From: a virus
Strand: one strand, 5' to 3'
DNA: 27,133 nucleotides
IMG/VR virus record: IMGVR_UViG_3300030406_000206
Location: 1 to 27,133 of that record
Shown here: piece by piece, positions 13,446 through 25,412 of the stretch
Layout of the letters: each line of letters begins with the position of its first letter
Position numbering within the stretch: the first letter of the stretch is position 1
Program-made: the position numbers and the translations under genes
Notes under the pieces: generated by a model
Told to the model about the DNA's origin: nothing
The model's input: the letters and a program-made list of their open reading frames with translations, nothing else
Database searches by the model: none

Positions 13446-13461
13446 GTTCACTCTCTAAGGT

Positions 13462-13486
13462 GGGGGAGAGCAATTAGCCCTCCCCC
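13462..13486 (-). terminator. GC-rich hairpin after the capsid gene
   Basis: GGGGGAG (13480-13486 read on the minus strand) pairs perfectly with CTCCCCC (13462-13468) around an 11-base loop, beginning 8 bases after the capsid stop. No T-run follows. It may be a partial or factor-assisted terminator, or a 3' structure that protects the capsid message, so that capsid outnumbers downstream products. Confidence 0.5.
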
Positions 13487-13494
13487 TGTTTAGA

Positions 13495-14451
13495 CTAGCC
13501 GATGTCGTACACAGCGCCGAGAGCCTTCTCGTTTTTAACTACGAGAGTGTACTCAGCAATAATTGCACGCTGTTCGCCATCAGACGTACTGGCAACTTCA
13601 CGCTGGAAGAACGGACGCAGATAAGCTACTCCGTAATACTCAGGGTCAAGCAACCAGACATCACGGGCGCGCTGGAAGCGGTTAGGAACAACGGCCATTT
13701 CGCCAAAGTCACTAACATAAACATCCATGCCACCGATGATGCGCTGATCAGCTGTATCGGTAAAGTTGGAAACGCCACTAGCACCACCTACGCCAACAAA
13801 GCTAGAGAACGTCTGCTTTGCCGAGGGAGCCATCATCAGGTATTTGATGTCAGCGCCTTCATCATAGGCCGAAACAATTGCCGCCTTTAGCAATGTTTCC
13901 GTAAACGCACGGGCAGAACCGTCCGAACGAGTTGCGGCACCTGCGCCTGACCCGTTAGAACCGTTCGATGCTTTGGAGATGTTCGTATTGACCCAAGTGG
14001 TCAACGAGCCAAGCTTACGAACTGTGCCGTCAGCTGCCATCGCAGCTTTAGCTTGGTTGACACCAACCATTGCACGTTCCATGTCGCGCTTGAGTTCTTT
14101 GGAACGCTTGGACATTTGGTAGGCAAGCTCTTCCTTACGGCCTGCTTTCGAGACCGCATCAAGCGTACCGGATACCAAAGTCGTTTTCAGACTGATCTGA
14201 CAAATGTTACCGACACGGGTGGTAGCCGCTGGCTCTGCTGCCGTAAGCGTAGCACCTTCTTCGTTAAAGTTGTCAGCAGCTGCCGCTAGAGAGTCAGTCT
14301 GCCATTCGTGATTGACTGCAATCGCGTCTGAGCGACCGCCCATCGACATGAAAGGCGTATCAGTCGGGGAAATGTCGTAAATTACATTCTCCAGGTCTTC
14401 CCGAAGACCGGCTGAGGAGAACGTAACGTATACACCAGTTGGCTGTGCCAT
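13495..14451 (-). CDS. Major capsid protein, SU10-type HK97 fold
   Basis: 318 aa. It reads like the SU10 major capsid family (DUF5309-type): VTFSSAGLREDLENVIYDIS at the N-terminus, then PTDTPFMSM, EWQTDSLAAAADNFNEEGA and ISLKTTLVSGTLDAVSKAG. The long helix EELAYQMSKRSKELKRDMER (about 107-126) is the spine helix of the HK97 fold. The C-terminus (LRPFFQREVASTSDGEQRAI) matches the axial domain end. The scaffold gene sits just upstream and the start is backed by AGGAG at a good distance before ATG 14451. No long N-terminal delta domain is present, so the scaffold is separate. High expression is expected from the promoter near 16570 and the hairpin after the gene. Confidence 0.9.
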   Translation of the reverse strand: MAQPTGVYVTFSSAGLREDLENVIYDISPTDTPFMSMGGRSDAIAVNHEWQTDSLAAAADNFNEEGATLTAAEPAATTRVGNICQISLKTTLVSGTLDAVSKAGRKEELAYQMSKRSKELKRDMERAMVGVNQAKAAMAADGTVRKLGSLTTWVNTNISKASNGSNGSGAGAATRSDGSARAFTETLLKAAIVSAYDEGADIKYLMMAPSAKQTFSSFVGVGGASGVSNFTDTADQRIIGGMDVYVSDFGEMAVVPNRFQRARDVWLLDPEYYGVAYLRPFFQREVASTSDGEQRAIIAEYTLVVKNEKALGAVYDIG

Positions 14452-14470: not shown

Positions 14471-15454
14471 TTATGAGATTAAATCCAGAAAAACATCTGC
14501 GGCATCTCTAGCATGACCTGTTTTCGACAATCTCTCTCGTTTAACTTGGGCAACCTTTTTGACTCTTTGTGATTTAGTCTGAGGCGTTCCTGATTTAACG
14601 ACTTTGGGAGCAACTTTAACTTTTTTGACACCTTTAGCTGCATTGTCCTGCAACATAGCTTTGTGCAATACCAATACAACTCTGTGGTCAGTGATGCTAT
14701 CTATTTCATTGGCTGGAAAACCAAGACTAAGCGCATAGTTCCTAAGATCAGTTTTTAAAGTCGATCCCGGCTCAGAATATTCTGGTAAAGCTTTAGCTAG
14801 AAGTTCTGCCTCTTGCTGTACCTTCTGAGTTACTATTTCATTAAACTCTTGCTGAGACTTCTGCTGCACTCTGGCGCGTTCGTTATTCAGCTGAGTTACT
14901 CTGTCCTTAGCTTCTTGATACTCAAGACGCTTCTCCATGTATTCCATTGGGTCTTCGTCTTTTAGTTCCTTCCAGTCAATATTCTCAAACCGTTGTAACT
15001 CATAATTTTGGTTTTGAGCCATCTGCTCCAAAACTTGAGAATACTGTTGACGCTCGTTTTGGACTGCTTGTAGATTAGCCTCGTAAGCTTTTCGCTGCTC
15101 TGCTAAAGATTGCGATTTACGGGTATAATCCGCTTGCCGCTGGTAACCATCTCGTAGCTCGTCCAGTGTAACCTCAAACTCTTCACCGTCTACTTTAACA
15201 GTGTAAGCTTGTGCGGTCTCTGTAGGAGTTTCCTCGTCAGCTACCTCGTACTCGTCTACCTCTTCAAACTCTTCGGAAACTTCTTCTTCGGCCTCGTCAA
15301 AGGCTTCAGCTTCATACTCTTCTGAGTTATCAATGGCAGGTTCTTCGATTGTTTGTTCCGGATTAGTGTTTTCCTCACTTCCAAACATGACATCGAACAT
15401 TGTAAGCTGTGGCTGTTCGACTTCCCCTTTGGGATTGGTCTGTGCCTCACTCAT
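14471..15454 (-). CDS. Capsid scaffolding protein
   Basis: 327 aa. The first 80 residues are extremely acidic with runs of E and D (about 42-78), then a small strand region (AYTVKVDGEEFEVTLDEL, about 83-100). A long charged coiled coil follows (about 105-225: RKSQSLAEQRKAYEANLQ and onward). The C-terminal 60 residues are strongly basic (KKVKVAPKVVK and a later RVKKVAQVKRER), the usual capsid-binding end. This acidic-coil-basic layout with position directly before the capsid gene identifies a scaffold that shapes the procapsid and leaves before packaging. The start overlaps the preceding stop by one base (TAATG), so translation is coupled. Confidence 0.85.
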   Translation of the reverse strand: MSEAQTNPKGEVEQPQLTMFDVMFGSEENTNPEQTIEEPAIDNSEEYEAEAFDEAEEEVSEEFEEVDEYEVADEETPTETAQAYTVKVDGEEFEVTLDELRDGYQRQADYTRKSQSLAEQRKAYEANLQAVQNERQQYSQVLEQMAQNQNYELQRFENIDWKELKDEDPMEYMEKRLEYQEAKDRVTQLNNERARVQQKSQQEFNEIVTQKVQQEAELLAKALPEYSEPGSTLKTDLRNYALSLGFPANEIDSITDHRVVLVLHKAMLQDNAAKGVKKVKVAPKVVKSGTPQTKSQRVKKVAQVKRERLSKTGHARDAADVFLDLIS

Positions 15455-15693
15455 TAGTTTTCTCCGTTTTCTATTTTATCATTATGGATAAGAGCTTGCA
15501 GGTCTTCCTTAACGGAACTCAAAGCGTTTAGCTTCATCCAACAAAGTTCTCTTTCTTCTACAGTATCAGCTATTGTCCATTCAGATATTAGCCTGTTACT
15601 TATATTTTGCAGTGTCTCTTTAAACACTGGGTTTTCAAGAATCATACTAGCTTGACTAGCTTGTTCTCTTGATAAAGTTGATGGGTTAGGCAT
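15454..15693 (-). CDS. Small helical protein before scaffold (79 aa), unrecognised
   Basis: Mostly helical: EQASQASMILENPVFKETLQ near residue 10, then TVEERELCWMKLNALSSVKE. No transmembrane segment and no known motif. It lies between the 28-aa lysine-rich gene and the scaffold, 4 bases after the former and overlapping the latter by one base. No strong Shine-Dalgarno precedes ATG 15693, so translation probably depends on the gene before it. A helper in procapsid assembly is possible but unproven. Confidence 0.65.
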   Translation of the reverse strand: MPNPSTLSREQASQASMILENPVFKETLQNISNRLISEWTIADTVEERELCWMKLNALSSVKEDLQALIHNDKIENGEN

Positions 15694-15697
15694 TAAT

Positions 15698-15784
15698 TTA
15701 TTTTTTCTTCATCTTCTTTTTCATCATTTTTTTCTTAGGCTTCATCATGCCGTTTCCGTTTTTCTTTCCGTAATGTCCAGGCAT
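15698..15784 (-). CDS. Tiny lysine-rich protein (28 aa)
   Basis: A very short frame with clear translation signals: AGGAG lies 6 bases before ATG 15784, and the stop falls 4 bases before the next start. The product begins MPGHYGKKNGNGMMKPKKK and ends in blocks of lysine and methionine; nearly half the residues are lysine. Comparable tiny Lys/Met/Gly-rich genes occur beside structural genes in marine phages, as far as I recall. The charge suggests binding to DNA, RNA or the acidic scaffold. Gene status rests on the ribosome site, the tight packing and the strong composition. Confidence 0.65.
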   Translation of the reverse strand: MPGHYGKKNGNGMMKPKKKMMKKKMKKK

Positions 15785-15793
15785 AGCATTCTC

Positions 15794-16045
15794 CTACCAT
15801 TTTTTACATGACCAGTATCTGGCCGTTAGTTTACTAGGGGGGCTAGAGTCGCAACGGTGCCTAGCCCGAAAACTTTTGCGTCGTTTTGGTTGGTCCTTCT
15901 TAATAGACATATTAGGATCACCGTAACGTATTAGGCGAACCTTATTGCCTTGCTTTGCCAGTACAGCAAATTTTTTATTTTTACCCGGCGTCCGCTTTGG
16001 TTTGTTATACCCGGAAAACTTCTCGCCTCTGTAATTTATTGCCAT
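15794..16045 (-). CDS. Small basic protein with C-terminal Cys/Trp motif (83 aa)
   Basis: Strongly basic: FSGYNKPKRTPGKNKKFAVL near residue 12, a strand VRLIRYGDPNMSIKKDQPKR, and the C-terminal SFRARHRCD and ARYWSCKKW with two cysteines. The FRARHRCD plus WSCK pairing looks like a conserved small-protein family in marine phages, whose role I do not know. A metal or nucleic-acid contact by the Cys and His residues is possible. It begins just after the collar gene stop and is followed by the lysine-rich 28-aa gene. Confidence 0.7.
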   Translation of the reverse strand: MAINYRGEKFSGYNKPKRTPGKNKKFAVLAKQGNKVRLIRYGDPNMSIKKDQPKRRKSFRARHRCDSSPPSKLTARYWSCKKW

Positions 16046-16046
16046 G

Positions 16047-16535
16047 TCAGGTCTTTATAATAAAGTTAATAGGTTGTACTTTGAGAACAGCCGTTCCAGA
16101 GGATGCGGTAGCTGTTTGAGATGTACCTAGAACAAATCCACTTCCTACACCTGCGGGAAAAAATGTTCTAAAATCTGGAACATTAAAGTTACTTCCCGAA
16201 CCGCCAAAGGTGGTTCCTATCACGCCAAACAAAACAGAATAGGTAGAAGTAGAATAAGATGAACCATCGCACAGTAAGAAATCGTTTATGCCACTAATTG
16301 TTTGAGTGGTAGGTATTGAGTTAGATGCGAACATCATAACCGTACCCGTTTCAAACCCCAATTTATTTAACTGCGCTGCTGTTGGATTAACAGCGGTGGT
16401 TCCTAAATTTGGAAACTGCGTCTGAAGGACAGTCTTTACAAGGCGAATATGATCGTCACCTTCGGATATGTTATCACCAGCAGCAGGATTGGATGCACTT
16501 AGCTGGCTAATATAGCTGGCAGATTCTACTGTCAT
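16047..16535 (-). CDS. Tail collar domain protein
   Basis: 162 aa. A collar domain covers about residues 62-130: ETGTVMMFASNSIP, then FLLCDGSSYSTSTYSVLFGV, IGTTFGGSGSNFNVPDFRTF and FPAG. That is the Phage_collar pattern, although the usual PxGW before the LCDG motif is altered to NDF. The N-terminal SASNPAAGDNISEGDDHIR with LVKTVLQTQFP is a common lead-in for this class. The product would be a short fibre or fibre tip. A strong promoter sits directly upstream, and AAGGA lies 8 bases before the ATG. The expected transcript start falls within this AAGGA, so the promoter may serve the following genes better than this one. Confidence 0.85.
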   Translation of the reverse strand: MTVESASYISQLSASNPAAGDNISEGDDHIRLVKTVLQTQFPNLGTTAVNPTAAQLNKLGFETGTVMMFASNSIPTTQTISGINDFLLCDGSSYSTSTYSVLFGVIGTTFGGSGSNFNVPDFRTFFPAGVGSGFVLGTSQTATASSGTAVLKVQPINFIIKT

Positions 16536-16553
16536 TTGCCTAGTCCTTAGTTT

Positions 16554-16582
16554 ATTTTACCATTATTTTTAACAATTGTCAA
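16554..16582 (-). promoter_or_regulatory. Sigma70-type promoter with extended -10 inside the late module
   Basis: On the minus strand: TTGACA (perfect; plus coordinates 16577-16582), exactly 17 bases, then TAAAAT (one mismatch; 16554-16559), with TGG before the -10 (extended -10). It fills the 48-base gap after the signal-peptide gene, the largest gap in the late module. Transcription would start near 16547 and cover collar, small ORFs, scaffold and capsid. It has the same design as the hsp20 promoter at 1583-1611. Confidence 0.8.
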
Positions 16583-16583
16583 G

Positions 16584-16964
16584 TTAATGTGATGCCTCAC
16601 GATCACTGAGCGGTACGCCCGCTGCTATTATGTAACCAGCTTTTAAGTTTGTAACAGGGTCGTACAATTTTAAAATAGTTGTATTTTTTTCCTTGTGGTC
16701 TCGGTACTGAGATACTACAGACTTAACACGTAAAACAACAGGTGGAAAAATTCGACTGCACGCACCATCAAGGTGTTTAGTATTAAGGACAGTAATGTAT
16801 TTTGATACGTTTTTAGAATCTGCGAGAGCCACATCCAGTATGTCTTTTTCTTCACGGCACATATAAAATACACTGACTTTATCGTCTTTGCCCCAAGTAT
16901 CCTCTGCAATAGCTGGGTGCAAAATTGCAACAAGAAATATTAGAGTTGTAATGAGTATACGCAT
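16584..16964 (-). CDS. Secreted or periplasmic protein with signal peptide (126 aa)
   Basis: A classic Sec signal peptide: M-R, a hydrophobic core (ILITTLIFLVAIL), then PAIA with likely cleavage after residue 20 before EDTWG. The mature part of about 106 residues has two cysteines (C36 and C69), suitable for a periplasmic disulphide, and strand-like stretches (KYITVLNT, VVLRVKSVVSQY, GYIIAAGVPL). No lipobox and no second membrane segment. No family is recognised. It lies between the DUF4376-like gene and the collar gene. Possible roles are superinfection exclusion, receptor masking or adhesin assembly; none is shown by sequence. Confidence 0.7.
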   Translation of the reverse strand: MRILITTLIFLVAILHPAIAEDTWGKDDKVSVFYMCREEKDILDVALADSKNVSKYITVLNTKHLDGACSRIFPPVVLRVKSVVSQYRDHKEKNTTILKLYDPVTNLKAGYIIAAGVPLSDREASH

Positions 16965-24921: not shown

Positions 24922-25137
24922 CTATGTTCTCTTTCTACCAGAGGCTGTGACAGACCACTTGACGCGCCCCGGTCCAGTTTTTTTACGGGCTTCTGCCTTA
25001 GAAATCCTAGAGGCTACTCGTTTGGGTCTACAGGCTGGGTAGGGGCGATTTCCATTTTTGGAACGCCCGCACTTTTTGCCAGTTTTGACATCTCGCCAAT
25101 CCTCAGCAAACCACTTGCCCAGACCACCCTTAGCCAC
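24922..25137 (-). CDS. Small basic Cys-containing protein (71 aa), GTG start
   Basis: The opening KGGLGKWFAEDWRDVKTGKK, followed by CGRSKNGNRPYPACRPKRV, is a conserved small-protein pattern seen in phages and large viruses (DUF5872/DUF6321-like by memory; the label is uncertain). Two cysteines flank a Gly/Pro segment. The rest is Lys/Arg-rich. The start is GTG 25137, not ATG, with AGGG 8 bases upstream, and it overlaps the 59-aa gene by 8 bases. Function unknown; DNA or RNA contact is plausible from charge. Confidence 0.7.
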   Translation of the reverse strand: MAKGGLGKWFAEDWRDVKTGKKCGRSKNGNRPYPACRPKRVASRISKAEARKKTGPGRVKWSVTASGRKRT

Positions 25138-25309
25138 GTTTTTTTACCCTATTATCTTTACCCGACCAAGTACCGCCCATACGTTTGTATTCTTTTGAGG
25201 CCCAAGCGTTGGCATAAGCACTGGGATATACCTTAAACTTAGCCTTAGCTTTTGCCTTTGCCCGTGACCACTTGGCTGGATCGTTAGGTTTTGGTTTTCC
25301 TCTTGCCAT
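25130..25309 (-). CDS. Small basic protein with YPSAYANAW motif (59 aa)
   Basis: The frame runs from ATG 25309 to TAA. The product opens MARGKPKPNDPAKW; the middle is Lys/Ala-rich (AKAKAKAKF) and is followed by KVYPSAYANAWASKEYKRMG. The YPSAYANAW block is a recognisable conserved motif of small phage and viral proteins that I recall as DUF5872-like. AGGA lies about 7 bases upstream. It overlaps the preceding 42-aa gene by 26 bases and the next gene by 8 bases. Role unknown. Confidence 0.7.
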   Translation of the reverse strand: MARGKPKPNDPAKWSRAKAKAKAKFKVYPSAYANAWASKEYKRMGGTWSGKDNRVKKRG

Positions 25310-25412
25310 TTTTACTTCCTAATTTTTTTAAGTCAGCGGCGGTAATTTTATTTCTTGGTGGGGCTACCCGTGCTAGTTTCTTTTGCTTTGCACTATACTT
25401 ACTAAAAGGCAT
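25284..25412 (-). CDS. Tiny basic protein after terL (42 aa)
   Basis: Starts at ATG 25412, sharing one base with the TAA of terL (TAATG), so it is translationally coupled. The product opens MPFSKYSAKQKKLARVAPPR and ends in KRKTKT; about a third of residues are Lys or Arg. Similar MPF-x-KYS-type short proteins recur next to terminase or portal genes in marine phages, by memory. Overlap with the next gene is 26 bases, long for this tightly packed genome. Function unknown. Confidence 0.65.
   Translation of the reverse strand: MPFSKYSAKQKKLARVAPPRNKITAADLKKLGSKNGKRKTKT

Follow-up and report, generated by a model that had tools for sequence, protein, structure and literature searches.

A promoter-like sequence lies deep within the late operon of an uncultured virus, a few genes ahead of the scaffold and capsid genes, and raises the question of whether those genes receive a transcript of their own. 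The window, i.e., the whole stretch of DNA that was analyzed, is a complete virus record of 27,133 bases, and DNA before the terminase falls outside it. Its long minus-strand module encodes terminase, an SU10-type portal, tail-fiber genes, a collar protein, two small genes, scaffold, an SU10-type capsid protein, and further virion proteins. From the sequence and its conservation, we consider it highly probable that the site, here termed P_L2, is a second, internal late promoter that is read by the main sigma-70 RNA polymerase of the host and raises scaffold and capsid mRNA. The relevant features, in the direction of transcription, are as follows.

16584..16964, minus strand: upstream gene, 126 aa, with a signal-peptide-like start, in a slot exchanged among relatives
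16577..16582, minus strand: -35 hexamer TTGACA; TTGAC invariant, sixth base A in 92% of 49 distinct relatives
16560..16576, minus strand: 17-nt spacer with the TG of an extended -10 at its 3' end (TGG before the -10); exactly 17 nt and TG in 49/49 promoter-bearing relatives
16554..16559, minus strand: -10 hexamer TAAAAT; TAnAAT in 49/49
16547, minus strand: predicted transcription start, an A placed 7 nt past the -10; A in 48/49 relatives
16544..16548, minus strand: collar Shine-Dalgarno AAGGA, read from the sequence and overlapping the predicted start; its core at transcript positions 1-4 in most relatives
16047..16535, minus strand: gene for a 162-aa tail protein with a collar domain, first behind the promoter (Pfam Collar PF07484, 2.5e-16)
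15794..16045, minus strand: small conserved gene, 83 aa (phrog_7595, 4.8e-22)
15454..15693, minus strand: small conserved gene, 79 aa (phrog_8161, 1.2e-5)
14471..15454, minus strand: head scaffolding protein gene (phrog_3927, 1.4e-69)
13495..14451, minus strand: major capsid protein gene, SU10 type (Pfam SU10_MCP PF17236, 1.7e-84)
13452..13494, minus strand: post-capsid hairpin, GGGGGAGGGC-loop-GCTCTCCCCC (-27.4 kcal/mol, z -3.59)

The site and its setting

The sequence-only reading had described TTGACA-N17-TAAAAT with a TGG extended -10, and these elements are present exactly as claimed, running from 16582 to 16554 on the minus strand. Between 7500 and 27133, this is the best (score 11/12) of 48 promoter-like sites; most of the weaker ones can be put down to chance, because shuffles yield 33.4 ± 6.1 sites of ≥9/12. 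The TTGACA/TAAAAT pattern with TGG and a spacer of 15 to 19 nt has an expectation of 0.03 per window. The promoter occupies the 48-bp gap between the 126-aa gene, for which a family search gave no match, and the collar gene (16536-16583), its -35 beginning one base past the end of the former. A search of the region for known RNA families returned a chance-level match only. The site precedes the scaffold-capsid block, but the collar gene and two small genes, with no other strict motif among them, intervene, so that scaffold and capsid, encoded on the same strand, follow only after about 1.1 and 2.1 kb. No terminator-like site was scored in a scan of the minus strand between collar and capsid start.

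The gap had also been called the only sizeable one in the module, which holds broadly, except that a 43-bp gap after the capsid gene also exists and contains a strong hairpin. Larger stretches free of ORFs in the list of ≥60 aa (25138-25411 and 15694-15793) are occupied by small same-strand ORFs. The ORFs that plug these apparent late-operon gaps (minus strand, at 25130-25412 and 15698-15784) are very short, at 42, 59, and 28 aa, and highly basic. Elsewhere in the window, on the plus strand, TAGACA-N17-TATAAT with TG (1583-1611) precedes an Hsp20-like (small heat-shock) gene that probably begins at ATG 1670, and similar sites stand ahead of the Hsp20-like gene in G001, G006, G032, G037, and G038.

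The nearest named phages share only 40 to 50% capsid identity with this virus, and a DNA-level search in named phages gave short capsid matches only, whereas IMG/VR holds many close relatives; the promoter-bearing family consists of uncultured, mostly marine phages. Bacterial genomes that encode related capsid proteins were uninformative about the host of this phage group, the best full-length match having 47% identity and the matches falling mostly in Alphaproteobacteria.

Conservation of the promoter and turnover around it

We scored 58 distinct upstream regions of ≥100 nt, drawn from 105 loci with a collar homolog (collar identity, 66 to 100%), selecting sites with up to two mismatches. TTGAC(A/T)-N14-TG-N-TAnAAT is present in 49 of the 58 regions, in each case with a spacer of 17 nt, and the other nine score 6 to 8 of 12. 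No region scores 9/12, and since the interval between 10 and 8 matches is empty, the all-or-none pattern was not created by the selection cut. The site has the features of the extended -10 class of sigma-70 promoters, namely, a TTGACA-like -35 and a TATAAT-like -10 at 16 to 18 nt with TGn ahead of the -10, and its hexamers are conserved over the spacer. Across the 49 relatives, the third base of the -10 is free (A in 29, C in 12, T in 7, G in 1), and an AA at -20/-19 is also retained (0.94/0.90). In 20 larger contigs (595 kb, both strands), the strict motif turned up 17 times, each time 45 to 65 nt ahead of collar, and none of the other genes tested is preceded by it.

Could the hexamers have been retained by chance, by recent common descent, or by coding or ribosome-binding constraint? 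The region is small and many sites come from related contigs, which lends this reading some weight, but substitution on the collar-gene tree makes it very improbable. Collar codon third positions undergo 10.2 changes per site on that tree, with 1.2% unchanged, whereas 12 of the 14 element positions show zero changes; the remaining two, the sixth base of the -35 and the third base of the -10, changed 3 and 7 times. Changes per column amount to 0 to 0.5 for the TG and the -35, 1.2 for the -10, 9.1 for the spacer, and 12.6 for the 20 nt upstream; the bases separating the two hexamers change freely. Hexamers lost among relatives that kept their flanking genes had been named as the outcome that would count against a promoter; the hexamers, TG, and 17-nt spacing are instead retained while the surrounding DNA turns over. 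The same alignment bears on the suggestion that the main feature is a repressor operator, a TTGACAATTGTTAA dyad around the -35. In the window, TTGACAATTGTTAA is a near palindrome, but most of the dyad falls within the spacer, and relatives have not retained it (e.g., TTGACAACTGCTTAA and TTGACAAACCTTTGT); we regard an operator as hardly credible. What began as a guess from a single sequence is now a well-supported regulatory element of a widespread uncultured phage group.

Upstream of collar, the promoter sits at a module boundary. The gene slot before collar is filled by 13 unrelated families among the relatives, the promoter lies beneath at least 10 of them, and the -35 is sometimes inside the 3' end of the upstream ORF. 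Several of the small genes in this slot have signal-peptide-like starts. Mapped on the collar tree, presence or absence of the promoter takes about 4 changes. Where the promoter is missing, the upstream gene directly adjoins collar or runs into it in eight of nine relatives (gap, -4 to 2), which suggests that the gap exists for the promoter. None of the nine has a displaced copy in the 0.2 to 3 kb of upstream DNA available, and two (G038 and G039) retain a promoter before terL. The existence of these nine distinct relatives indicates that P_L2 is not essential in every lineage, and lineages with and without it constitute a natural experiment. No such promoter precedes scaffold in the distant, pelagiphage-like phages of SU10 type Venkman, HTVC106P, and ct2t2046 (capsid identity, about 50%).

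The terminase promoter, the polymerase, and the collar leader

All 12 relatives' contigs containing the region before terL (G002, G006, G008, and G032 to G040), which lies outside the window, carry a separate consensus sigma-70 promoter there: TTGACA-N17-TATAAT or TATACT (12/12 or 11/12), with no TG, 512 to 719 nt before terL. It probably starts the late operon, and it fits the earlier proposal that the internal site gives a transcript apart from read-through driven from terS, in that relatives carry a distinct consensus promoter before the terminase genes. The internal promoter lies several kilobases downstream of it (about 9 to 10 kb in most lineages).

Host RNA polymerase had been named as the user of the site, and this is supported as likely. 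The T7-type polymerase domain PF00940 is absent from 15 virus records, which may be incomplete (the T7 control was positive), as is sigma-70 region 2, although the control for the latter was weak, the divergent phiEco32 sigma factor falling below the family cutoff, so that a divergent phage sigma factor or cofactor may have escaped notice. Classical sigma-70 elements in both promoters, together with the failure to find a phage polymerase or sigma factor in these records, make the host sigma-70 holoenzyme the most likely user. A near-consensus promoter of this kind might fire early unless the order of DNA entry or repression delays it.

Two other readings accept the site as a promoter and differ over its user or its purpose. 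By one, it only resembles a sigma-70 site, is read by a polymerase that the phage has modified or assists with an activator (compare the phiEco32 sigma factor), and would hence be active only late. The invariant TG and a -10 whose third base is not T in 42 of 49 relatives, in contrast to the terminase promoter that these phages carry, speak for such a factor, and the retained AA at -20/-19 hints at it. The -35 and -10 are nevertheless both classical and separated by 17 nt, neither a sigma factor nor a polymerase gene was found in the records searched, and the phiEco32 late motif AATGTATA looks unlike this promoter (PMC4281155) and is absent from the site; a modified polymerase is, in our judgment, unlikely. 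By the other, the promoter serves mainly the collar protein, a tail part, and not the capsid genes. The first gene behind the promoter is indeed collar rather than scaffold or capsid, which counts against a capsid function; collar is always the next gene, and the promoter's position is tied to the collar ATG (46 to 48 nt away in most relatives). A leader of 12 to 13 nt with the Shine-Dalgarno at its very 5' end, as most relatives are predicted to have, would, however, be an odd design for a dedicated collar promoter, and in L007, where the predicted leader is 5 nt long, the Shine-Dalgarno is lost. Scaffold and capsid also follow on the same strand with no terminator-like site scored before the capsid start, and we doubt that collar is the main target.

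The leader bears equally on how collar would be translated. The sequence-only reading had placed the transcription start within the collar Shine-Dalgarno, which is correct for the predicted start (A16547 lies inside AAGGA, 16548-16544), and had suggested that this transcript may be a poor template for collar translation. That suggestion stands in part: in nearly all relatives, the start coincides with the Shine-Dalgarno edge, but the core (AGGA/GGAG) is usually still inside the leader, and poor translation of collar from the promoter's transcript is plausible. In L016, L018, and L019, a longer leader containing a small hairpin (AGAGCT...AGCTCT) separates the promoter from the Shine-Dalgarno.

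A proposed capsid transcription unit and its known counterparts

With P_L2 as a host-read internal promoter, the late operon would first be transcribed from the consensus promoter before the terminase genes. Some 9 to 10 kb on, past terminase, portal, and an exchangeable tail-fiber cassette, P_L2 would start a second transcript covering collar, the two small genes, scaffold, and major capsid, which includes the proteins needed in the most copies, and the post-capsid hairpin would probably end part of these transcripts or protect their 3' ends. We propose that P_L2 plus the hairpin would make capsid messages more abundant than portal and terminase messages and that P_L2, standing where the exchangeable cassette meets the conserved head module, would keep head-gene expression independent of upstream swaps. 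The phage would then be a clean example of how a virus apparently equipped with only the host polymerase sets capsid dosage inside one long operon.

Mechanistically, the promoter has precedents; the phage group that carries it is undescribed. T7 has phi9 and phi10 before scaffold and capsid and Tphi after 10A, and double promoter knockout cuts 10A RNA by 84 to 86% (PMC6068830). In both phages, promoter sequences stand ahead of scaffold and capsid (here with collar and two small genes in between) besides upstream read-through, and a hairpin comes right after capsid, an arrangement that raises capsid mRNA in T7 and would do so here; T7 differs in using a single-subunit polymerase of its own with another promoter sequence, whereas here the elements are those of sigma-70 and no such polymerase was found. 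LUZ24-like phages (LUZ24, PaP3, tf, and UFV-P2) have the SU10-type capsid, a similar terL-portal-scaffold-capsid order, and sigma-70 consensus promoters before terS and within the late structural region (PMC3517423, PMC3890496), and in LUZ24 a hairpin annotated as a terminator directly follows the capsid gene. Their internal late promoter, however, is far downstream (before gp50/orf19) and not before scaffold and capsid, and all that is annotated between portal and orf5 in PaP3 is a weak site. In phiEco32 and SU10, which share the capsid family, several promoters likewise lie within the late structural region, but they depend on a phage sigma factor and the AATGTATA motif (PMC4281155); phiEco32 has no promoter just before its capsid gene, the nearest AATGTATA motif coming after it. 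We see about an even chance that, at the cassette boundary in this marine group, P_L2, scaffold, capsid, and the hairpin form a host-polymerase version of the T7 capsid transcription unit that insulates capsid dosage from swapping, the lineages that lost the promoter having joined collar translation to the upstream gene.

The hairpin directly follows the capsid stop codon, and its folding energies across all close relatives lie between -21 and -27 kcal/mol. It is present in 17 of 17 distinct contigs with a median of -23.4 kcal/mol; the positions behind other genes give about -6 to -12, and none of those tested comes near it in strength. In this phage group it mostly has no clear U-run, and it may therefore not terminate; it is probably an attenuator or terminator, or a protector of the mRNA 3' end. 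Strong post-capsid hairpins of unrelated sequence also occur in distant SU10-capsid phages (LUZ24, PaP3, Venkman, HTVC106P, and BA6). That a hairpin persists at this place in all close relatives and in very distant phages of the same capsid family, although its sequence differs, suggests a device of general use for capsid mRNA. In a rough alignment of 18 hairpin sequences, 4 of 8 pairs have two-sided changes. Just after the capsid hairpin, the pelagiphage-like relatives L039 to L071 have a conserved stretch, TTTTGTTTGGTCTTTGAAG.
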